Positions 3,504-21,214 of a DNA stretch of 64,000 bases are shown piece after piece; position 1 is the first letter of the stretch, and every line of letters starts with the position of its first letter. A model generated the notes under the pieces. The model searched no databases, was not told the origin of the DNA, and was given only the letters and a program-made list of their open reading frames with translations. The translations under genes and the position numbers were made by a program. Source of the stretch: Actinomycetospora sp. NBRC 106378 (lineage in GTDB: Bacteria; Actinomycetota; Actinomycetes; Mycobacteriales; Pseudonocardiaceae); assembly GCF_030269685.1 (NCBI RefSeq), contig NZ_BSTT01000002.1:248001-312000 (forward strand), read 5' to 3'.

Positions 3504-3764
3504 GTGAACGATCAGCACCGAAGGAGTGAGCAGGCGCGGGTCGCCGCCCGCTCGGTGCTCGCCAACGTGGAGTCGCTGGACGACCTCGGCGCGGACCACC
3601 GCGCGCAGGTCGTCGCCCTCGCCGAGCAGCTCAGCCGGGGGCACCTGGACCGGGCCGGCACCCTGTGGGCCGCCGCGCAGCTCCGCGGTCTGCTCGGGCC
3701 CGCGCGGGCGCTCGCGGCGCGGACCGTCGTGTCCTGGCTCGACGACCTCTGCCTCGCGGCCTGA
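3504..3764 (+). CDS. Hypothetical helical protein, 86 aa
   Basis: GTG start at 3504. The predicted protein (MNDQHRRSEQARVAARS to WLDDLCLAA) looks like three or four amphipathic helices, rich in Ala/Leu/Arg, with no signal peptide, cysteines or recognisable domain. No Shine-Dalgarno precedes the GTG; a TACTTTAAGTAAC stretch 15-20 bp upstream could be a -10 region of a leaderless transcript (weak inference). It sits 19 bp before a small membrane protein on the same strand and may be co-transcribed with it. Coding character is good; function unknown. Confidence 0.55.
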   Translation: MNDQHRRSEQARVAARSVLANVESLDDLGADHRAQVVALAEQLSRGHLDRAGTLWAAAQLRGLLGPARALAARTVVSWLDDLCLAA

Positions 3765-3783
3765 CGTCGCTAGGGTGGCGGCC

Positions 3784-4014
3784 ATGGTGGAACGTCTCGC
3801 GGCACGTGTCGGGACGACCCCGATGCGCCTGCTCCTCGGCGGTTGGGGCGTCGCCGCCGTGCTCCTGCTCGGCGGCCTGGCGCTGGTGCTCACCGGCGCG
3901 TCGACGGCCCTCGGCTTCGTGCTCTTCATCCTCGGGGTGATCCTCACGATGGGCGTCTCCGTGAACCTGCTCCGCCTCCGGGCCGGGGACCACGTCCGCA
4001 AGCCCTCGAAGTAG
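3784..4014 (+). CDS. Small two-helix membrane protein, 76 aa
   Basis: Starts at ATG 3784. After a short amphipathic N terminus it has two hydrophobic segments, about residues 17-40 (LLLGGWGVAAVLLLGGLALV) and 43-63 (ALGFVLFILGVILTMGVSV), then a positive tail (LRLRAGDHVRKPSK) that should stay in the cytosol. No family recognised. It follows the 86-aa hypothetical with a 19-bp gap. Confidence 0.55.
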   Translation: MVERLAARVGTTPMRLLLGGWGVAAVLLLGGLALVLTGASTALGFVLFILGVILTMGVSVNLLRLRAGDHVRKPSK

Positions 4015-7103: not shown

Positions 7104-9956
7104 TCAGCCCGCGCGGAACTCCTCGGAGGGGGTGTCGGCCGGGCCGTCGTCGTTCTCGGCGTCGGCGTGGTCGTCGTTCCCGTCCGGCACGGCCTGCGGC
7201 GGCGGGTAGGACGGGTTCAGCGTCACCGTCCGGGTCGCCCCGATGCCGCGGTAGCGGGCCGGGGTGCACGTGAGCACCACGACCTGGTGCGAGGACCCCG
7301 CGGCGGCCGCCCCGAACACCGCCGCCAGCCGCTCCAGACGGCCCGGGTCGGAGTGTCCGAGCGCGTCGTCGATGAGGACCGGCACACCGTCCTCGGCGTC
7401 GACGAGCGCGGCCACGGCGAGGCGGGCGCAGAGGCCGAGCTGCTCCTTCGCGCCAGTCGACAGCGCGTCGAAGGGGACCGTGACGCCGTTCAGCGTGCGC
7501 GAGACGATCCGCAGCGCCGGATCCACTTCGAGGGCGAGCGACGGTCCGAAGACGATCCGCGCCAGCCGCTCCACCTCGCGGCGGAACGGTGCGACGTAGG
7601 CCCGCCGGACCTCGTCGCGACGCCGGGCCAGGGTCTCGTGCAGCCGCACCGCCGCGGCCGCCCGCCGGGACACCGATGCGTGCTCGCGCTCGGCCGCGGC
7701 CAGCTCGGTGCGAGCCGCGGCGAGGCGGTCGTGGCGGCCCTCGCCGCCCGCGACCTGCAACCGACCGGTGACCTCGGCCCGGCGGCGCTCCACGTCGGCC
7801 GTCCGCCGGGTCAGCGCCTCCACCGCGCGCTTCGCCGTCGCGTACAGGGCCTCGACGGTCGTCGGGTCGTCGGCCTCCAGCGCGGCGGCGCGCTGCTCGT
7901 GGTCGGCCTCGAAGCGCCGGGCGCGCGCCAGCGCCTCCGTGGCGGCCGCGGTCAGCGCCTCGTCGGCGTGCTCGGCCCGGGCGGCCCGGAGTTCCGCGAC
8001 GCGTCGATCCGCCTCGCTGCGCGCGACCGCCTGCGCCGTCCGGGCCGCCACGACCTCCGCGCCGGCCGTGGTCACCGACGCGTCGAGTCGGCGCCACGCG
8101 TCCTCCGCGGTGCGGGCCAGCCGGTGGGCCTCGTCCGCCAGGTCCAGGCTGCGCACCGCCTCGAGGCGGAGCGGTTCGAGGTCCTCGGGCTCAGGGTCGG
8201 CCGAGGGATCGTCGAGCAGGCCGGCCTCCTCGAACAGCCCCGGCTCGTCGGGTACCGCGCGCCGGGCGCCCCGCCGCCGCGTCGTCGGCTCCGGGGCCGC
8301 CTCGGCGGGCATCCGCTCGGCGAGGGCCGTGACCGCGGTCCGGACGTCGTCGAAGGACCGTCCGGCCAGCTCCCGCTCCACCACCGCGGCGAGTTCCCGC
8401 GACCGCGCCGCGGCCTCGCCGGCCGTCCGCAGCGCTGCCCGGGCCGCGGCCACGTCGGGGACCTCCAGCGCGGCGCACGCCGCGTCGCGGGCCGCCCGTG
8501 CGTCGGCGACCCGGCGCCGGGCGCCCTCGCCGTCGAGGCCGGGTCGGACCGTGAGCCGCACCGCCCCCGGCACGTCGATGGTCACCGCGTCGGCCACCGG
8601 CAGCGTCGTGGTCTCCCCGTCCGCGATCTCCCGGTCGGCGCCGTCGACCGTGAGCGGGGTGTGGTCGGCGAGTCCGGTGACCTCCACCGTCGCGGCTCCG
8701 GCGGCGAGCTCGGCCTCGGCCTGCACCACGGCCCGGTCCAGCGTCTCCAGCCGGTCGACCGCCGCCGCGTCCGCGCAGGGTCCGGCCACGGCCCGGGCGG
8801 CCTCGCGCCGCGCCTCCTCGGCGGTCCCGGCCCGTCGGAGACGGCCGCGCAGGTCGGCGAGCTCGGTGCGGTCGCGCGCCGCGGCGAGCGCGTCGGCCGC
8901 CGTACGGGCTGCCGCGGTGGCGGCGTCCGACGCGGCCTGGGCCCGGTCGGCCTCGGCCCGCCGCTCCGCGAGGTCCTCGCGCCTGGCCCGGTCGCCCGCT
9001 TCGAGGCCGGCCAGGATGCGCCCGGCGTCCTCCGCAGCGCCCTCGGCAGCCGCGGTCACGGCCACGAGCGACGTCCGCGCGTCCTGTCGCTCCGTGGCCC
9101 GGGCGGCCCGCTCCCGCGCCGCCTCGGCCCGCTCCGCGCTGGTGGCCACCTCCTGCTGCCGCGCCTGCAGCGCCGACCAGCGGTCCTCCAGCTCGTGCAC
9201 CCGGGCGTTCTGCGTGCGCCGTTCCTCGGCCAACGACGCGGCCTCGCGGTCGAGGTCGGCGCGCAGGTCGACGTCGCGCTCCACCTCGGACACCGCCGCC
9301 GCGGCGGCCTCCGCCTCGGCGCGCGCGACCCGCTCCCGCTCGGCGGCCTCCCGCAGCGGTCCGACCGGACGCCCGTGCCCGCCGTGGTAGCGCCGGACCT
9401 CGGCGAGCGCCCGCTCCACCAGCCCCTCGGCCGCCGCGTCGGCCGCGGGCCCGACCGCCTCGGCGCCGCCACCGCCCGCGGCCCGGTCGAGCGCGCGGGT
9501 CAGCGCGTCGTGCCCGCCGAGGTCCGCCTGCCCGAGCGGGGTGTGCTGCTCCACCCGCAGCGCGAGCCACAGGTCCCGGTCCATCGTCTCGTCGAGGATC
9601 GCCAGCAGCCGGTCGTGCGCCTCGCGACCGGTCAGCTGCTCGGTGGCGGGGCCGGTGACGGTCAGCTCGGTGAGCCGGCGCCGGAGCCACCGCTTCCGGT
9701 AGACGACGCGGTACGGCCCGGTGACGAACTCGGCCTCCACCTCGGGCCCGGCGTCGCGGCCGGACGGGGCGGCGGCCCGCACGGGGGCGGCCCGGGAGTC
9801 GTCGCGGAAGTCGATCAGCAGGTCGAGGGCCACGACGGTGGAGGTCTTGCCGACCTCGTTCTCGCCCTCGAGCACCGTCACGCCGGACTCCGCGAGGTGG
9901 ACCTCGCGGTCGTGCACCCCGCGGAAGTCGCGCAGCCGGATGCGGAGCAGCCTCAT
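7104..9956 (-). CDS. SbcC/Rad50-like AAA ATPase
   Basis: 950 aa SMC-like ATPase. The N-terminal ATP-binding half has LRDFRGVHDREVHL, then the Walker A LEGENEVGKTS at about residue 30. A long Ala/Arg/Glu-rich region (about 180-800) has coiled-coil character. The C-terminal half has LSTGAKEQLGLCARLAV (signature-like) and the Walker B VPVLIDDALGHSD. No CxxC zinc hook is visible in the coiled coil, unlike Rad50/SbcC, so it resembles the YhaN-type subgroup. It overlaps the upstream SbcD-like nuclease gene by 4 bp; the two should form a nuclease-ATPase complex that processes DNA ends. A direct repair role is inferred from the family. Confidence 0.8.
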   Translation of the reverse strand: MRLLRIRLRDFRGVHDREVHLAESGVTVLEGENEVGKTSTVVALDLLIDFRDDSRAAPVRAAAPSGRDAGPEVEAEFVTGPYRVVYRKRWLRRRLTELTVTGPATEQLTGREAHDRLLAILDETMDRDLWLALRVEQHTPLGQADLGGHDALTRALDRAAGGGGAEAVGPAADAAAEGLVERALAEVRRYHGGHGRPVGPLREAAERERVARAEAEAAAAAVSEVERDVDLRADLDREAASLAEERRTQNARVHELEDRWSALQARQQEVATSAERAEAARERAARATERQDARTSLVAVTAAAEGAAEDAGRILAGLEAGDRARREDLAERRAEADRAQAASDAATAAARTAADALAAARDRTELADLRGRLRRAGTAEEARREAARAVAGPCADAAAVDRLETLDRAVVQAEAELAAGAATVEVTGLADHTPLTVDGADREIADGETTTLPVADAVTIDVPGAVRLTVRPGLDGEGARRRVADARAARDAACAALEVPDVAAARAALRTAGEAAARSRELAAVVERELAGRSFDDVRTAVTALAERMPAEAAPEPTTRRRGARRAVPDEPGLFEEAGLLDDPSADPEPEDLEPLRLEAVRSLDLADEAHRLARTAEDAWRRLDASVTTAGAEVVAARTAQAVARSEADRRVAELRAARAEHADEALTAAATEALARARRFEADHEQRAAALEADDPTTVEALYATAKRAVEALTRRTADVERRRAEVTGRLQVAGGEGRHDRLAAARTELAAAEREHASVSRRAAAAVRLHETLARRRDEVRRAYVAPFRREVERLARIVFGPSLALEVDPALRIVSRTLNGVTVPFDALSTGAKEQLGLCARLAVAALVDAEDGVPVLIDDALGHSDPGRLERLAAVFGAAAAGSSHQVVVLTCTPARYRGIGATRTVTLNPSYPPPQAVPDGNDDHADAENDDGPADTPSEEFRAG

Positions 9957-14873: not shown

Positions 14874-15042
14874 GATTGCCTCCACGAGGTCGGGTCACCC
14901 GATGGTCGGCGCCGCGGTGGGAGATGTCCAGCGATGACCCGTGATCGCAACGAACACGCGGTCATCCGTTCCACGCGGTCGGACCCGGTGTGGTCGCCCG
15001 ATAGGGTGCTGCGCGCGGCCGCGCGGTGCGGCGGGCCGCACG

Positions 15043-15120
15043 GGGGCAGTAGCTCAGCTGGTCAGAGCAGCGGACTCATAATCCGTCAGGTCGTCGGTTC
15101 GAGCCCGACCTGCCCCACCA
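15043..15120 (+). tRNA. tRNA with CAT anticodon (Met or Ile2)
   Basis: A complete cloverleaf: acceptor GGGGCAG/CTGCCCC, D arm GCTC...GAGC, anticodon stem GCGGA/TCCGT around loop CTCATAA (anticodon CAT), T arm GTCGG-TTCGAGC-CCGAC, discriminator A and encoded CCA. CAT can mean elongator Met or lysidine-modified Ile2; the loop does not decide. It lacks initiator-type features. Its 3' 39 bp are the attachment core of the integrated element to the right. A TAGGGT hexamer at 15,002-15,007 may be its -10 box. Confidence 0.92.
15081..15119 (+). repeat. attL core (tRNA 3' end), 39 bp
   Basis: Runs from the 3' anticodon stem (ATCCGTCAGG...) through the T arm to the first two bases of CCA. Identical over 39 bp to 20,242-20,280; flanking bases differ on both sides, which fixes the limits. 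Confidence 0.85.
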
Positions 15121-15183
15121 TCCGTGCTGGTCACGGGCTTGCAGCCTCGTCGCGAGCAACATCAACACCCACAGAACCCCCAC

Positions 15184-15660
15184 TTAATGCTCCGTCTTCT
15201 CGTCGGCGCCTGATCCGAGCGCGGCGTCGAAGGCGTCGGCCGCCTCTCGTCCGGCGGCCCGCTTGTCCATGTAGACGTCCTGGGTGATCGAGGGCCGGGC
15301 GTGCCCGATGTGCCCGGCGATCGCGCGGGCGGAGAGCCCGGCCTGATCGAGGATCGTGGCGGCGGTCTTGCGGAAGACGTGGCTGGTGACCCACTCGTAG
15401 CCGGCCGCGTCGAGGGCCTCCCGGAGCCGGGCGCCGGTGTTCTGCGGGTCGCGCCAGGACCCGCGCCCGAGGTCGTGACCGCGCGAGTTCGCGAAGACCA
15501 TCGAGGTCGGTACGACGTCCTCCGGGCGCCGCTCGCGCAACATCTCCACGACGAAGGCGGGCAGCGGCAGCAGGCGGCGCGCGGCGAACGTCTTGCCCTC
15601 GTGGCGTACGAGTCCCATCCCCTTCACGCGAACGACGTTGGCGACGATCGCGACCTCGCC
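15184..15660 (-). pseudogene. Tyrosine integrase, C-terminal catalytic fragment
   Basis: About 158 codons survive, from EVAIVANVVRVKGMGLVRHEGKTFAAR (the beta-strand region with catalytic Lys) through HVFRKTAATILDQAG (H-x-x-R box), AIAGHIGHARPSITQ (second His) to the nucleophile in DVYMDKRAAG. The core-binding domain and the first catalytic Arg box (usually in the first 200-250 residues) are absent: the homologous sequence stops near 15,660, exactly where the divergent HTH gene begins. A shortened ORF from GTG 15627 may be annotated as intact, but it cannot be an active recombinase alone. It lies next to attL, the expected place for this element's integrase. Confidence 0.82.
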
Positions 15661-15662
15661 GG

Positions 15663-16388
15663 ACGAACCAGCGGCTGCGGGGCTCCATTGTCTCGGCCGG
15701 TCTGCGGCCGGCGGACCTGGCCGAGCGCATCGGAGTCGACGCCAAGACCGTCGGACGCTGGATCACCAAGGGTCGCCTACCGCACCGCACCCACCGGGTC
15801 GCCGTCGCATCCGCGCTCGCGGTCGACGAGGGCTACATCTGGCCCGAGGTGGTCGAGCTGCCGGTCACGCAGTCCGCGAGCCAGGCCGAGCTGCTAGCCA
15901 TGCACCCGTCCCGAGGGTCGATCCCGCACGAGACCTGGGCCCAGCTTATGGACGGTGCCCGCGAGGCGATCGACATCCTCGTCCACGCCGGGTCATTCCT
16001 CTTCGAGCAGTACGATTTCCTACACGTCATCCGCCGCAAGGCCAGCCAGGGAGTGCGCGTCCGCATCCTCATCGGCGATGAGACCTCCGACGCCGTCGCA
16101 CTTCGCGCAGAGGAGGAAGGCACCACCGGTGGACTGCAGGGGCGCATCCAGCTCCACCGCCGCTACCTGCGCGACCTCGATGGTGTGCCCGGCGTCGAGG
16201 TCCGCGCACACGGCACGACTCTCTACAACTCGCTCTTCCGCTTTGACCAAGACTTGCTCGTCAACGGGCATGCCTGGGGCGCCCCTGCGGGCCAGTCGCC
16301 AGTGATGCACCTACGCCGCGTCCCGGGAGGTCGCACTTGGGACCACTACATGCGTTCTTTCGAAAAAGTTTGGGGATTCGGGGAATAA
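15663..16388 (+). CDS. HTH/PLD-like regulator of the element, start codon lost
   Basis: The frame reads TNQRLRGSIVSAGLRPADLA, then ERIGVDAKTVGRWITKGRLP, a clear helix-turn-helix. A C-terminal domain of phospholipase D-like type follows (DGAREAIDILVHAGSFLFEQ, VRVRILIGDETSDAV, VEVRAHGTTLYNSLFRFD, VMHLRRVPGG). Homologous regulators I recall begin with Met just before the (T)NQRL segment; here no ATG/GTG/TTG occurs in frame before GTG 15849, which would delete the HTH. The loss coincides with the integrase truncation point. It may be translated from a fused or non-canonical start, or be dead. Likely role: sensing/regulatory protein of the element, not an active lipase (no paired HKD motifs seen). 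Confidence 0.65.
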   Translation, partial: TNQRLRGSIVSAGLRPADLAERIGVDAKTVGRWITKGRLPHRTHRVAVASALAVDEGYIWPEVVELPVTQSASQAELLAMHPSRGSIPHETWAQLMDGAREAIDILVHAGSFLFEQYDFLHVIRRKASQGVRVRILIGDETSDAVALRAEEEGTTGGLQGRIQLHRRYLRDLDGVPGVEVRAHGTTLYNSLFRFDQDLLVNGHAWGAPAGQSPVMHLRRVPGGRTWDHYMRSFEKVWGFGE

Positions 16389-16419
16389 CTCACTTGACGG
16401 CGAGTGGGAGCATACGCGC

Positions 16420-17163
16420 GTGGATGAAGGTCATGACGTCGAGATGCACGCCGTCTTCGTTGGTGAAGTGCACCCGGTCTCGGGAGGCTGGGCCTTAGAC
16501 GACCCGATCGAGATTCCTTTCGGAGACTCTCATTGGACGATGATCCTGAGTTCGAGCAGGGTGCACGTGGTCGTACGCGGAGAGATGCCTTCTGATATGG
16601 AAACCTTTATCAACGAGGTAAGGGCCGTCTCTCAGGGATGTATCGATAGTCTGGGCATGCTGCTAGGTGCATCTCTAAGACTGGAACTTACTTCAATCAT
16701 AGTCAACGGAAATAGAATTTACCTGCCGTCGCCTTTCTGGTATGCGAAGGCGGTTAGTCGCGTTGAGGGTGACCGGCTCATTCCGGTCGTAGCCGCTGCG
16801 GTTTCGGAACCTCTGGCTCGGTTGGCGTTGGCAGACCTTCGCGTTGCTCAGACTTCGCCTGACGATTCAGGGTTTTTGGCGTATCGTGCCGTCGAGAGCG
16901 TGCGTCAGTACTTCTTCTGCCCCGCCGATGGTAAGCGGTCTGATGAGAAGTCATGGGAGCGATTGCGAACGTCCCTCGACTTCTCGAAGTCCGAACTTGT
17001 CCGGTTGTCTGAGTTGGCAAGAGTTCGTCGACACGGCGGCCTCCCGCGCCATACGGAAGCCGAACGGATCGAGTCCTTCGACATCGCTCTGAGAGTGGTG
17101 AAGTCGTTTCTAGAATTTCTACATAGAGTCGAAACGCCGGAAGCGTCCTCTGGGTCTGACTGA
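16420..17163 (+). CDS. Low-GC cargo gene 1, unknown (possible HEPN-like C terminus)
   Basis: 247 aa, GTG 16420 preceded by GGGAG. Not a family I recognise. N-terminal half: beta-rich (WALDDPIEIPFGDSHWTMIL, RVHVVVRGEMP). Middle: helix around residue 70 and the aromatic SPFWYAKAVSR. C-terminal half (about 140-240) is all helical: FLAYRAVESVRQYFF, a W-containing helix, ELARVRRHGGLPRHTEAER and a final helix FDIALRVVKSFLEFLHRV. The R-HG-T-AER arrangement recalls HEPN-type RNase domains, but the spacing is not canonical, so this is only a suggestion. Codon use (about 43-50% G+C, A/T third positions) differs sharply from the chromosome. 28 bp separate it from gene 2; both probably form one transcript. 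Confidence 0.6.
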   Translation: MDEGHDVEMHAVFVGEVHPVSGGWALDDPIEIPFGDSHWTMILSSSRVHVVVRGEMPSDMETFINEVRAVSQGCIDSLGMLLGASLRLELTSIIVNGNRIYLPSPFWYAKAVSRVEGDRLIPVVAAAVSEPLARLALADLRVAQTSPDDSGFLAYRAVESVRQYFFCPADGKRSDEKSWERLRTSLDFSKSELVRLSELARVRRHGGLPRHTEAERIESFDIALRVVKSFLEFLHRVETPEASSGSD

Positions 17164-17215
17164 GTCTGGGCGCCGAAAGCGGATACTCCGCGTGACAACG
17201 GGTGGGGGGTTGATG

Positions 17216-18316
17216 ATGGTAATTCGAAAGGGCCGAGAAGCGTCACCGAGTATCGAGGCACTCGGAGTGTTCGCTGAGTTTGACGTGTCATCTCGCAACA
17301 CCACGTTAGGAGATTTTCAGCGCCGCCAACAGGTGGTCGAGATGTTCAGCAAAGGACTCGATGAGTCACTCGCCCGCGACTCGCGGCTGCATGGTGTTCG
17401 AGTTCAGAATATGTTTTACGCGTTAGTGGTTGTGCTTGGTCAATTCAAACTTTTCAAGGTCGAGGACTCTGGCAATTTCTATTTTGACGACAGCGCTGGC
17501 GAGGTGGCCCTTCCTGACTTCCGCCTAGTTGACGCAGACGGAGAGCAGTTCGTAATCGAAGTCAAGAATGTGCCGCCGTCGAGCGCCCTCGAGACTACTG
17601 TCCGAAAGAAGATGCTCTTAAGGCAACGTCGTTACGCTCAGTTGACGTACGCCCGACTTTTGTATGCGCACTACTGGTCGGGCTTCAATTTGTGGACACT
17701 AATTGACAGCTCGATTCTAGATGGTAGTAAGGACGACTCTGAATCGAATCTTCGACTATCTTTGCCTGATGCAATGAAGGCTAATGAAATGAGCCGTCTC
17801 GGAGATGCGATGATTGCGACGCGCTCACCATTAACGATGCAGATACGAGCGGATCGCTCACGAGGTCGGAAGCATGGACGAGACACTATCGACGACCTCG
17901 AGAAACTTGAAGTCAGTTTCTCTATCTCTGACGTTCGCTACTTTAGTGAAGGCAATCTCATCGAGGACGAAGTTGAGCGCAACCTTGCACACTTTCTCGT
18001 ATTCTTTGGTCGCTGGGAGACACGCGACTCTATAGAATTCGACGACGACATGCCTGTGTCGATGAGCTTCGTCTCGCGGCCGGAGCCAGAGGAGGATACG
18101 CAGAGCTCTCAGGGTTTCACGAACATCGGGACTCTTAGTTCTATGTACTCGACGGCTTTCAATGTTAAAACGCTCGATCGAGACTCTCAAATAACTGGCC
18201 TTGCCGAGCAGCCAAAACCAGAGTTCCTTTCGGGTCTACTTCCTGGCGAGTATTGGGAGCGCGACTCCCGCGTACTTCCGATCTGGAAGTTCGTGCAGCG
18301 GGCGCCAGAGCCGTGA
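17216..18316 (+). CDS. Low-GC cargo gene 2, predicted PD-(D/E)XK nuclease
   Basis: 366 aa from ATG 17216, which has GGTGGGGGG at good spacing; GTG 17192 and ATG 17213 are alternatives. At about residues 100-125 (counting from 17216) it shows the core of a PD-(D/E)XK fold: VALPDFRLVDADGEQ (Asp), then FVIEVKNVPPS (E-x-K). Helices with RQRRYAQLTYARLLYAHYW and a strand FNLWTLID follow, as in restriction-like nucleases where a YW/NxW segment follows the core. The C-terminal 200 residues are acidic and unrecognised. Foreign base composition and a place inside a tRNA island suggest defence or element-maintenance cargo (inference). The partner is probably the gene just upstream. Confidence 0.65.
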   Translation: MVIRKGREASPSIEALGVFAEFDVSSRNTTLGDFQRRQQVVEMFSKGLDESLARDSRLHGVRVQNMFYALVVVLGQFKLFKVEDSGNFYFDDSAGEVALPDFRLVDADGEQFVIEVKNVPPSSALETTVRKKMLLRQRRYAQLTYARLLYAHYWSGFNLWTLIDSSILDGSKDDSESNLRLSLPDAMKANEMSRLGDAMIATRSPLTMQIRADRSRGRKHGRDTIDDLEKLEVSFSISDVRYFSEGNLIEDEVERNLAHFLVFFGRWETRDSIEFDDDMPVSMSFVSRPEPEEDTQSSQGFTNIGTLSSMYSTAFNVKTLDRDSQITGLAEQPKPEFLSGLLPGEYWERDSRVLPIWKFVQRAPEP

Positions 18317-18356
18317 GGACGAGTGCGGGAGCGGCACGCGTCCTAGGATGCTTGGC

Positions 18357-18830
18357 ATGGCTCGAGTTGATTACTACAACGATCCGACCGCTCCGCGAGC
18401 TAACAGTCTCGTGCCGTCGGTGACAGCTGCAGCGCGTGACGACCGTGGGCGCATACTCCTCGTCGAGAAAGTTGATAACGGGTTCTGGGCTCTACCGGGC
18501 GGCGCTATGGAGCTTGGAGAGTCGATCCGGGACGCAGCGATCCGAGAGGTGGAAGAGGAGACCGGTGTGCACGTTGGAATCATCGGACTCGTTGGTATCT
18601 ACACCGACCCAAGACACGTGATGGAGTACGACGATGGCGAAGTTCGCCAGGAGTTCTCGGTATGCTTCCGCGCTCGCCCACTAAGCGGCGAGCCGAGAAA
18701 GGACGGGACGGAGACGAAGGCGGCCCGGTGGGTCGATCCGGTCGAGCTATCAGGACTGTCCATCCACCCAAGCATGCGTCGACGGATCGACGCCGCGCTG
18801 GCGGGCGGAAGCGAGCCGGAGATCGTCTAA
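18357..18830 (+). CDS. Nudix hydrolase
   Basis: 157 aa from ATG 18357 (AGGA 9 bp upstream; ATG 18348 in frame has none). The Nudix box is complete: GGAMELGESIRDAAIREVEE followed by ETGV, matching GX5EX7REUXEEXGU with all metal-binding glutamates. Cytosolic hydrolase of nucleoside diphosphates linked to another moiety. Nudix genes are recurring members of the regulatory module of actinomycete integrative elements, which supports the element's classification. Base composition rises back toward chromosomal values here. It converges with the HD gene, overlapping by 4 bp. Confidence 0.85.
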   Translation: MARVDYYNDPTAPRANSLVPSVTAAARDDRGRILLVEKVDNGFWALPGGAMELGESIRDAAIREVEEETGVHVGIIGLVGIYTDPRHVMEYDDGEVRQEFSVCFRARPLSGEPRKDGTETKAARWVDPVELSGLSIHPSMRRRIDAALAGGSEPEIV

Positions 18831-19387
18831 GCGGGGGCGGCCAACCGGCTGGTAGTGCGCTCGGTCGCGGCCGCAATGTCGGGCCGGGCGCGCGTCATGG
18901 CACGGCCAACGATGGAGTCAGGCTCGAAGCGGGCGAGGATTTCGGCGAGGCGGTCGGCGTAGTCGAAGGATTGGCCCCGGGGGCCGGTGGTCATGTCGGC
19001 CGTCCAGAGCGCGTCGGGCACCGGACCTTCCTCGCGGGGCCATTCGGCCAGCTCGTCGGCGAGGTCCCGTTCCTCGGCCTCGAAGGTCGCGGCTGAGTGG
19101 TGAGCGACCAGCGCGCATAGACGAGGCGAGTGGCCCCGAGCGGCGAGGTAGCGGGCACCGTCGATCGGGTGGAACCCGGTCTGCACCAGTCCAGGCGCGT
19201 ATCCCAGGTCATGAAACCAGGCCGCAACGACGAGGAGGTCCCGGTCCTGCTCTGGCACCGCGGCGGACAGCTCGTCCGCACGGCGGGCGACCTGCTGAGT
19301 GTGCGTCCACCGCGCGCCGAGAGGGGCCAGCAGCTCCCGTGCGAGATCGGCAGCGGCAGCGGGTCCTGGACGTTCCTGCACGGTCAC
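18827..19387 (-). CDS. HD domain phosphohydrolase
   Basis: 186 aa, GTG start. HD-superfamily metal set in order: RWTHTQQVARRADEL (first His), VVAAWFHDLGYAP (HD), LVAHHSAATFEAEER (His pair) and the distal Asp in FDYADRLAEIL. Expected to be a small metal-dependent phosphohydrolase acting on nucleotides or signalling molecules. It overlaps the convergent Nudix gene and starts 43 bp after the replication-initiator remnant on the same strand, so Rep-HD may once have been an operon. Confidence 0.78.
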   Translation of the reverse strand: MTVQERPGPAAAADLARELLAPLGARWTHTQQVARRADELSAAVPEQDRDLLVVAAWFHDLGYAPGLVQTGFHPIDGARYLAARGHSPRLCALVAHHSAATFEAEERDLADELAEWPREEGPVPDALWTADMTTGPRGQSFDYADRLAEILARFEPDSIVGRAMTRARPDIAAATERTTSRLAAPA

Positions 19388-19429
19388 GACTGTAGGACTC
19401 TGCGCGACCGCAGCACCGCGCGCGCGTCG

Positions 19430-19855
19430 TCACGCCAGCCGTACGGCTGGAACTCGTGGCGTGGAACCGTCACCGGGCCGAGCGACAGTCCAGGCCAGAC
19501 CACGAGCGGAGAGCCACCTACGGGCACCGTCGAGGCCGTCGCGCTCGGCGGCGGCGAGGAGGTCGGTCTCCTGCCGGACGCCGATGATGTGCTTCCACGC
19601 CTCGCGAGGGATAGCGATTCCTTCGTCTGCCTCCTGGTCATCGGCGGCGATCTCCTCGTCGCTCGCCTCCTGGCCGAGGCCAGCGAGGGTGCCTAGGTCC
19701 CGGCGACCCGTAGACCAGGTGAGCTGCCGCCGTCCGTCGCTCGCTGCTTCCCACTCCCACCACCGGGCCATGTCGGTGGCTTCGTAGGTCTTCGCGACGT
19801 CGCCGAGGAGCTGCATCGGGGTCCGGCCTCCGTGGCGGTGGCCTTCCTTGCGGTG
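19430..19855 (-). pseudogene. Replication-initiator C-terminal remnant
   Basis: The frame reads GHRHGGRTPMQLLGDVAKTY, then ATDMARWWEWEAASDGRRQL, TWSTGRRDLGTLAGLGQEAS and DEEIAADDQ. The pattern xGGxTPxxLL...W-EYE-A--GRR-LTWS-GLR--L--...(T/S)DEEIAA is what I recall from the C-terminal region of plasmid/AICE replication initiators (RepSA and related) in actinomycetes. Upstream the match fades, so the catalytic N-terminal two-thirds are missing. An ORF of 128 aa from ATG 19816 remains. Function lost, or at best a fragment; assignment moderately sure. Confidence 0.5.
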
Positions 19856-20053
19856 CCCGCTCGTCACTTCGTGGCGTTGGCGTCCGCTGCTGTCCTCGCG
19901 ATCGTCGCAGCGGCCATCGTGCTGGACACGCTCGTAGGTAGCGACTTCGTCATGTGGGCCGGGCTGGCGCTGATCGTCGGCGCCTGGACGATAGTTTTGG
20001 TCATGCTGGCGCGACGCTACGGATGGCACAGCGGAGGACCAGGAAACGGCTGA
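19832..20053 (+). CDS. Small two-helix membrane protein, 73 aa
   Basis: GTG 19832. Two hydrophobic helices are visible (HFVALASAAVLAIVAAAIVL and MWAGLALIVGAWTIVLVML) with a positive RRYGWHSGG tail. No convincing ribosome site; it overlaps the 5' end of the Rep remnant on the other strand. It may be a genuine small membrane gene of the element or a chance hydrophobic frame. Confidence 0.35.
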   Translation: MAVAFLAVPARHFVALASAAVLAIVAAAIVLDTLVGSDFVMWAGLALIVGAWTIVLVMLARRYGWHSGGPGNG

Positions 20054-20241
20054 GGCGGCGTCTACCCCGGCGCTGCCTAGGGCTGGAGCTGATCCAAGAT
20101 CGTCTCCCCACCTTTCCCCCACGGAAGCGCGAGGAGTGGGCATGACCGGCCGGTAGGAGTGGTGAGGAATCGCCGGACGTTCCGGCAGCTCAGAAGCCAC
20201 ATCACGGACCACCGGCAGACCACCGGCCGCTACGACGCGAC

Positions 20242-20280
20242 ATCCGTCAGGTCGTCGGTTCGAGCCCGACCTGCCCCACC
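20242..20280 (+). repeat. attR core, 39 bp copy of tRNA 3' end
   Basis: Identical to 15,081-15,119. Only the 3' half of the tRNA is present (no acceptor 5' strand, D arm or anticodon), so it is an attachment-site copy and not a second tRNA gene. Confidence 0.85.
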
Positions 20281-20367
20281 CTTCCTGCCGGCCTGCGATC
20301 GTGGGTGGCGGCGGATCCGAGCGCGGCGCCGGAGCCGCGCCTGCGGCTGTTGGTGTGGTGATAGTTA

Positions 20368-20392
20368 GCTGTTCAACCGCTGGGGGAACAGC
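20368..20392. promoter_or_regulatory. Inverted repeat upstream of 20,477 gene
   Basis: GCTGTTC and GAACAGC form 7-bp arms separated by 11 bp, about 85 bp upstream of the GTG of the next gene; GGATAGGACA just downstream could hold a -10 box. Candidate operator. Confidence 0.35.
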
Positions 20393-20476
20393 GGATAGGA
20401 CACAGCTGAACCCCGGGCGCTGCCGAGACCGTGCAGCGTGCCGGTACGTGCAGTCACTTCGGGGAGTGGGTGCAGC

Positions 20477-20803
20477 GTGGGATTCGCCGACGTGCCGTAC
20501 CACCAGGGGCCGCGGGACCTCGAACGACGGAAGGCGTTGCAGAACCGGGCGGCGACGGTCATCGCCGCGTTGGAGGACTGGACGGCCGCCGGTGTCCGGG
20601 ACGAGGTCCTCGTCGCGATCCGGTACCACGCGGAGCATCTCTGCGACCTGTCCGAGGGCGCGCCGCTCTCCCCGCTGGCGTGCCGGGCCCACGCCTACGG
20701 GCTGGCGGCACTTCTGAGCTTTCTCGACGCGACCCAGGCAGGGCACCTCGCCACGGACCTCTTCGAGATCATCGCGGAGTGGACCGACGAGTCGGGTACG
20801 TGA
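20477..20803 (+). CDS. Hypothetical protein, 108 aa
   Basis: GTG 20477 preceded by GGGGAGTGGG. All-helical appearance (ERRKALQNRAATVIAALEDW, CRAHAYGLAALLSFLDATQ, HLATDLFEIIAEWT) with no signal or membrane segment and two isolated cysteines. No family recognised. It is the first chromosomal gene right of attR, so it may have been next to the tRNA before integration. Confidence 0.5.
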   Translation: MGFADVPYHQGPRDLERRKALQNRAATVIAALEDWTAAGVRDEVLVAIRYHAEHLCDLSEGAPLSPLACRAHAYGLAALLSFLDATQAGHLATDLFEIIAEWTDESGT

Positions 20804-21214
20804 CCGGAGCGGAGAGCGCGGCTCGAGGACCACGTCCTGCAGTCGATGCTCCGCGCCGAACATCCCGTCGCGAGGACCGGCCGGCGGCGCTGTCTGCTCA
20901 ACGCCGCCGGCCTCACCCAGCAGATACCCGATCGGTCGTGCGTCATTCCCTGGGGCACGGCCACGTCGCCGGGGCAGCGGGACGGACGCGCCACTCGTTC
21001 GGGTGGTCCTGGACCCGTCGCAGTCCGCGTCAGCGAGCCTCGTCTGCTGGTCCTCCCGGGTGACGCCGTCGCGTGTCGCGGCGTCCCGGTCACACACGAT
21101 CACGCCTGCGACCGGACCAGGACGATGATCGGGCGACATTCGCCGGGTCGACCCGGCGTCGGAGCGCCGGCTCGGCGGATCAAGTCCCCGGCCGCGCCGA
21201 CCGTCGAGAGGGAC
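20804..21214. other. Gap without a convincing gene (411 bp)
   Basis: Open frames here are Arg/Pro-rich and lack ribosome sites. I see a near-match to the ACCCGNCGTCGGGA motif (ACCCGGCGTCGGAG near 21,150) and nothing else definable. Confidence 0.4.

Follow-up and report, generated by a model that had tools for sequence, protein, structure and literature searches.

What is the foreign DNA at a CAT-anticodon tRNA gene of Actinomycetospora sp. NBRC 106378, and could it still move? We analysed a 64,000-nucleotide window (G000:C2:248001-312000), which lies in an 862-kb contig of this 6.3-Mb draft genome of 52 contigs. An earlier reading of the letters alone, hereafter the original prediction, had proposed an insertion with both ends set by a 39-bp repeat of the tRNA 3' end, and had identified it as an actinomycete integrative and conjugative element (AICE) that has lost its transfer genes. 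This identification holds, because full-length relatives occupy the same tRNA in congeners and the element shares its ends with one of them, that of genome G002. We conclude that positions 15081-20280 are very probably a decayed AICE, now resembling a cis-mobilizable element (CIME).

The tRNA target site and the ends of the element

The tRNA gene (15043-15120, plus strand; ARAGORN, with the Rfam tRNA model matching 15043-15117) is the insertion target and is restored at attL, the left attachment (att) site. With its CAT anticodon it is called as tRNA-Met, tRNA-Ile2 being the alternative identity. The predicted repeat is exact: the attL core (15081-15119) and the attR core (20242-20280), both read on the plus strand, are identical over 39 bp and lie 5161 bp apart, start to start. 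The core begins on the 3' side of the anticodon loop and ends with the CC of the terminal CCA. When the repeat is stretched to 50 nt, identity is 92%, and beyond the core the flanks differ on both sides, as had been noted. By our own estimate (no tool output), an exact 39-mer would arise by chance in 10 kb at the local G+C with a probability of about 1e-13.

Identity of the left flank with the empty site of congener G014 runs to 15119, and homology with the G002 element ends at 20280, the last position of attR, so that both predicted ends coincide with those of the G002 element. The insertion lies at a tRNA 3' end between direct repeats, in the manner of an AICE; judged by the exact cores and by arms that match those of G002, it also appears to keep both att sites of a CIME. 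We give almost no credence to a local duplication of the tRNA end with no element involved. Nothing past the repeat itself speaks for it, and it is contradicted by G002, in which the homologous element end stops exactly at the core; moreover, an integrase adjoins the tRNA, and single-copy sites without an element exist.

Elements at the same tRNA in congeneric genomes

The genus sample comprised 18 genomes, our own (G000) and 17 congeners, three of which (G003, G007 and G013) are 59-84% complete. The tRNA 3' end is present in two copies in seven genomes and in one copy in 11. Core-to-core distances are 5.2 kb in G000, 15.5 kb in G001, 13.8 kb in G002, 14.2 kb in G009, 3.4 kb in G010, 11.2 kb in G011 and 3.9 kb in G015. 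The right-hand core is identical at 39 of 39 positions in G011, at 38 in G001, G002 and G010, at 37 in G009 and at 34 in G015. A full-length integrase is encoded at this tRNA in G001, G002, G009 and G011, and a C-terminal fragment in G000 (aa 226-388) and G010 (aa 240-390); the two integrase (Int) matches of G015 lie elsewhere.

At 86% identity, a single alignment of the G002 locus with the window spans the left flank and the tRNA and ends within the integrase, at 15662. On the right, alignment covers 19874-20280 at 92%, stopping exactly at the end of the core, and the chromosomal flank resumes at 20980. The G002 element carries, in order, int, an HTH_17 Xis gene (E=2.2e-13), small genes, an FtsK/SpoIIIE-like gene, an XRE regulator, a HAD hydrolase, two cargo genes and a Rep gene. 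The G001 element has RepSA (E=2e-151) and FtsK/SpoIIIE (E=1e-12) in addition to xre, nud and mdp. These Pfam family scans covered G002 and G001, and the comparison with G009 and G011 was by DNA and open frames. By their predicted gene content, the full-length relatives at the CAT tRNA are AICEs.

Reduced elements have a counterpart in a second genome. The 3.4-kb element of G010 corresponds to the 11.2-kb element of G011 minus a clean deletion of about 7.77 kb that runs from within int to beyond rep; the left part is 92.3% identical, the right part 98.6% over 2,910 bp, and the two overlap by 5 bp at the junction. Because the end points of this deletion differ from those in the window, internal deletions removing the int N-terminus have occurred at least twice at this site, that of G010 independently. 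The right arm of G015 is related to that of G009 (75% over 281 bp).

Side observations were made at three of these loci. Between the regulator and rep of the G002 element (L044, 9037-11735) lie a YaaC-like gene and a PIN-plus-Mrr-type nuclease gene, a possible defence cargo. G004 has a poor core match (29/39) 1.4 kb past the tRNA. In G016 (L043, G016:C65:330000-349000, ~3744-3881), the CAT tRNA and about 60 bp upstream are inverted in place relative to both flanks.

Empty sites and the case against a decayed AICE

The original prediction expected relatives with an empty site that carries a single 39-bp copy, joins at the repeat and has the gene at 20,477 directly beside the tRNA. The single copy was found: G014 and G006 have one core and no element, and genes for an acyl-CoA ligase and a GGDEF protein follow on the right as in the window. 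In neither does the tRNA have the gene at 20,477 as its neighbour. After its tRNA, G014 aligns to window positions 20874-20929 and then from 21085 onward. It lacks the stretch of about 590 bp next to attR on the chromosomal side (20281-20873), in which the window has an open reading frame (ORF; 20438/20477-20803). Matches to this ORF occur in 4 of the 41 genomes searched, our own included, the other three being weak (E 5.8e-9 to 3.6e-6). G002 and G006 likewise differ in the DNA immediately right of the site. The hairpin near the tRNA in G014 corresponds to 20874-20929. We considered an older second element right of attR (20281-20873), hinted at by 20307-20337, 31 nt that match the 3' end of the integrase; in such G+C-rich DNA the match is weak (E=0.014), and we do not claim a second element.

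Several points weigh against a decayed AICE. In G014 the absence of 20281-20873 means that the empty site is not joined at the right-hand core. For the G002 translocase, FtsK is matched weakly and below the curated cut-off (E=0.007; plasmid_TraB E=0.0014), and the Rep_1 match of the same element (E=1.3e-7) falls just below its cut-off (31.8 vs 33.2 bits). No genome compared holds an intact version of the same element, and we therefore infer the ancestral gene order from G002, which has the same int, rep and right arm with another regulator and other cargo, and from G001, which has xre-nud-mdp.

The host assembly is also a draft, and a misjoin is possible. In its strongest form this objection makes the truncations of int, xre and rep artefacts of collapsed tandem elements, and tandem arrays of AICEs do occur, according to PMC9513070. 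We consider this explanation highly improbable, since the junctions lie inside the 862-kb contig and the independent assembly of G010 has the same kind of deletion.

Genes between the cores

The predicted integrase fragment (15184-15662, minus strand) corresponds to residues ~226-388 of a 390-aa tyrosine integrase and matches PF00589 (E=3.3e-10) over 15184-15627. In alignments it keeps the H..R, H and Y residues, while the first catalytic Arg (Arg I) and the N-terminal domains are gone; the catalytic roles are those that we presume for these residues. The fragment abuts a remnant of xre (15663-16388, plus strand), the regulator of an xre-nud-mdp cluster. Its native ATG was lost at the deletion junction (~15660-15665), to judge by the reading frame and relatives: the frame reads TNQRLRGSIV where relatives have M(A/P/T)NERLRG or near it, and there is no in-frame ATG, GTG or TTG ahead of 15849. 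All 27 strongly conserved Xre columns are kept, none of them within the helix-turn-helix (HTH) part. Of the several element-type regulators that had been predicted between the repeats, family scans found this truncated one and no other.

Two further genes, p247 and p374, separate xre from nud (18357-18830, plus strand), which encodes a Nudix hydrolase with an intact Nudix box (PF00293 E=7e-22; PADLOC PDC-S07 E=5.7e-12) and 33 of 35 strongly conserved columns. The mdp gene (18827-19387, minus strand) encodes an HD-domain phosphohydrolase (PF01966 E=1.8e-9) that retains its H..HD residues and 29 of 33 strongly conserved columns, the changes being L58F, G108D, F116W and Y154F.

The Rep remnant of the original prediction is also present (19430-19874, minus strand; open frame 19430-19867). 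It corresponds to residues 226-371 of the 395-aa Rep ORF of G002, with 75% protein identity; the DNA from 19512 to 19874 is 78% identical to the G002 rep and is cut at 19874. There the right arm begins (19874-20280), and the deletion junction falls within a small ORF (19832-20053) that resembles a membrane-protein gene.

The xre-nud-mdp cluster in relatives

A cluster of mdp, nud and xre is described for four Frankia AICEs, Sco5349, pMEA100 and pSE211 (PMC3218068). In a search of 298 genomes of the order, xre was matched in 94, and we compared 30 loci, our own and 29 others. In all 29 others nud follows xre after 11-50 bp, and an HD gene lies within 1.5 kb in 27, convergent in 26, the exception being L086. 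In the window the three genes are present in the order xre, nud, mdp, but the gap between xre and nud is 1968 bp and holds p247 and p374.

The 215 bp around the xre start of 27 relatives contain 53 ACGTCC/GGACGT hexamers, where single-base shuffles predict 3.5 and the density of the whole window ~7.5; 26 of the 27 have at least one. Repeated, inverted GGGACGTC/ACGTCCC motifs lie about 200 bp upstream of xre (L080-L108). The ACGTCC/GGACGT motifs upstream of xre are probably the operator of the xre-nud-mdp cluster. In the window this intergenic hexamer region is gone, and a single hexamer, at 15515, falls within the integrase fragment.

The three gene types lie together in the window as they do in the AICEs with this cluster described in PMC3218068. 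Unlike in those AICEs, xre has no start, two genes separate it from nud, both int and rep are broken, and there is no tra gene. In pSAM2, which has RepSA and Pif, the latter is a Nudix immunity factor according to the same source; correspondingly, the G001 element at the same tRNA has RepSA and the window keeps a Nudix gene. Unlike pSAM2, the rep remnant of the window is of the G002 type and has no RepSA match, and Nud would be Pif-like by analogy alone.

Two inserted genes between xre and nud

G+C is 72-78% in the flanks and drops within the element, to a minimum of 46.5% (17600-17799) in 200-bp windows, the size that the original prediction had specified, and 48.7% in 400-bp windows; the drop was correctly foreseen, and the 43% given for it is not reached. 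Foreign genes of low G+C do lie within the element, but the low-G+C part consists of p247 (16420-17163, plus strand) and p374 (17213-18316, plus strand) and not of regulators. We found no convincing target-site duplications or terminal repeats around the pair. Scans for promoters (three weak consensus sites, 0.6 expected, sd 0.8) and terminators (one, 2.8 expected) were not used.

The p247 product is an orphan. It has no relative in plasmids, in the order genomes beyond our own or, by exact-peptide patterns, in viral contigs, and no match in Pfam, NCBIfam, PHROGs, PADLOC or PDB sequences. We found nothing in support of a HEPN-like reading of its C-terminus, which we do not claim.

The p374 frame opens at 17192, and homologues suggest a start at 17213 or 17216. 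Relatives with 26-40% identity occur in 13 GTDB contigs; the family ranges over Actinomycetota, Pseudomonadota and one Verrucomicrobia metagenome-assembled genome, and also plasmids. Among 42 plasmid records with p374, 34 are predicted to be conjugative, and many are near-copies from Providencia, Escherichia and Proteus. Residues D109, E123, V124 and K125 (numbered from 17192) are invariant in 14 sequences, giving the conserved D...E-x-K of the PD-(D/E)XK nuclease superfamily; we take D109, E123 and K125 to be that motif. The window protein has no Pfam, NCBIfam or PADLOC model match and no PDB sequence match. Three of the 14 sequences give sub-threshold Hjc matches (best E=0.019), and there is a phrog_190 match (E=0.048). 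Such weak Holliday-junction-resolvase matches agree with a PD-(D/E)XK fold for p374, short of proof.

We compared 20 p374 loci, four of them with just 1.5 kb on each side. No p247 match was obtained in them at E values up to 1, which rules out p247 as a conserved partner of p374, and no family but p374 itself occurs in as many as nine. Apart from one neighbour family common to three loci, the clusters that recur consist of overlapping p374 frames or stem from the three near-identical Nocardia copies. Near one p374 on a Providencia plasmid, genes for an Mrr-like nuclease and a UvrD-type helicase have PADLOC matches, and two other scanned genes have none; these surroundings hint at a defence setting.

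One could imagine that p247-p374 is an undescribed two-gene nuclease module which took over the xre-nud operon of an AICE and which, with the Nudix (Pif-like) and HD genes, would make the dead element a resident barrier to incoming mobile DNA. We think this unlikely. If true, the barrier role would explain why p247-p374, nud and mdp stay open while the mobility genes are gone.

Could the element still move?

The complete tyrosine integrase, replication initiator and translocase of an AICE are all absent from the window element. In tblastn searches of 15001-20400, neither the Xis and TraB-like proteins of G002 nor the RepSA and Tra proteins of G001 gave a match, except for a short one of the G002 Xis query that falls on the HTH of xre. 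In one search of our own genome, the sole match of the G002 TraB-like protein is on contig C26. Because the integrase, Rep and xre are all broken, the element would not be expected to self-excise.

The C26 locus (L110, G000:C26:19000-38500) is an AICE-like element of ~9.4 kb at a tRNA-Thr gene (TGT), with 75-bp repeats (99%) at 7180-7254 and 16554-16628 and a TraB-like protein that shares 73% identity with its G002 counterpart. A third AICE-like locus (L111, G000:C12:114000-132000) has RepSA, Xis-like (47%) and weak TraB-like (28%) matches.

We also weighed the possibility that helper AICEs keep the element mobile in trans, as a streamlined satellite or CIME whose att sites and arms are under selection and whose cargo pays for its keep. 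Such a satellite fits the two exact cores, the right arm at 92% identity to G002 beside a rep fragment at 78%, the parallel G010 derivative with nearly the same integrase tail, the occupation of the site in seven of 18 genomes and the tRNA-Thr element in the host. It nevertheless seems improbable to us: this version occurs in one genome only, p247 is found in 1 and p374 in 4 of the 298 order genomes (our own counted in both), the leftover broken pieces of xre, int and rep are unlike streamlining, and the integrase beside the tRNA-Thr element, at 27% over residues 128-376 (E=2.7e-5), is no more than a distant relative.

Origin and significance of the relic

The ends of the element, the parts it has lost and the extra DNA between xre and nud are seen directly in the comparisons above. 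On the reading as a decayed AICE, an AICE of the family seen in four congeners would have integrated by Int-mediated recombination of attP with the 39-bp 3' end of the CAT tRNA. One deletion would have removed xis, the traB region and the N-terminal part of the integrase, together with the promoter and start codon of xre; a second would have removed the N-terminal half of rep and the genes up to ~400 bp from attR. We infer the order and number of these deletions. The relic comprises both att cores and arms, the integrase tail and the nud-mdp pair, with xre and nud separated by p247 and p374. Entry of a related AICE with a matching Int/Xis might allow its excision or capture. If it now brings any benefit, the source would be Nud and Mdp (conjugal immunity, by analogy with Pif of pSAM2) or the nuclease-like p374 protein.

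Decay to a partial integrase and cargo between direct repeats has been published for a Streptomyces population (PMC9513070, section 14 and legend of Fig. 4). There, likewise, a truncated integrase and cargo lie between direct repeats, related strains have a genuine AICE and an empty site, and future cis-mobilisation is possible; the target is a glycosyltransferase gene, as opposed to the CAT tRNA here, and the host is presumably of another genus. CIMEs are defined in PMC5704250, and TR1 of scab-causing Streptomyces is an actinobacterial case according to PMC8369830. Like these, the window element keeps its att sites and has lost its integration and transfer genes; in contrast to them, no tandem helper is seen at its site, and its mobilisation is putative.

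The relic itself is ordinary, the fate of a decayed AICE being already known, and the p247-p374 cargo is its sole fresh part. Its value lies in the setting. One tRNA gives a clean series of single-copy sites, four elements with full integrases and three reduced derivatives (G000, G010 and G015); for two of the three, the deletion junctions can be placed to within a few bases. The case also shows extra genes inside an otherwise tight xre-nud pair, and points to the unnamed, scattered p374 family.

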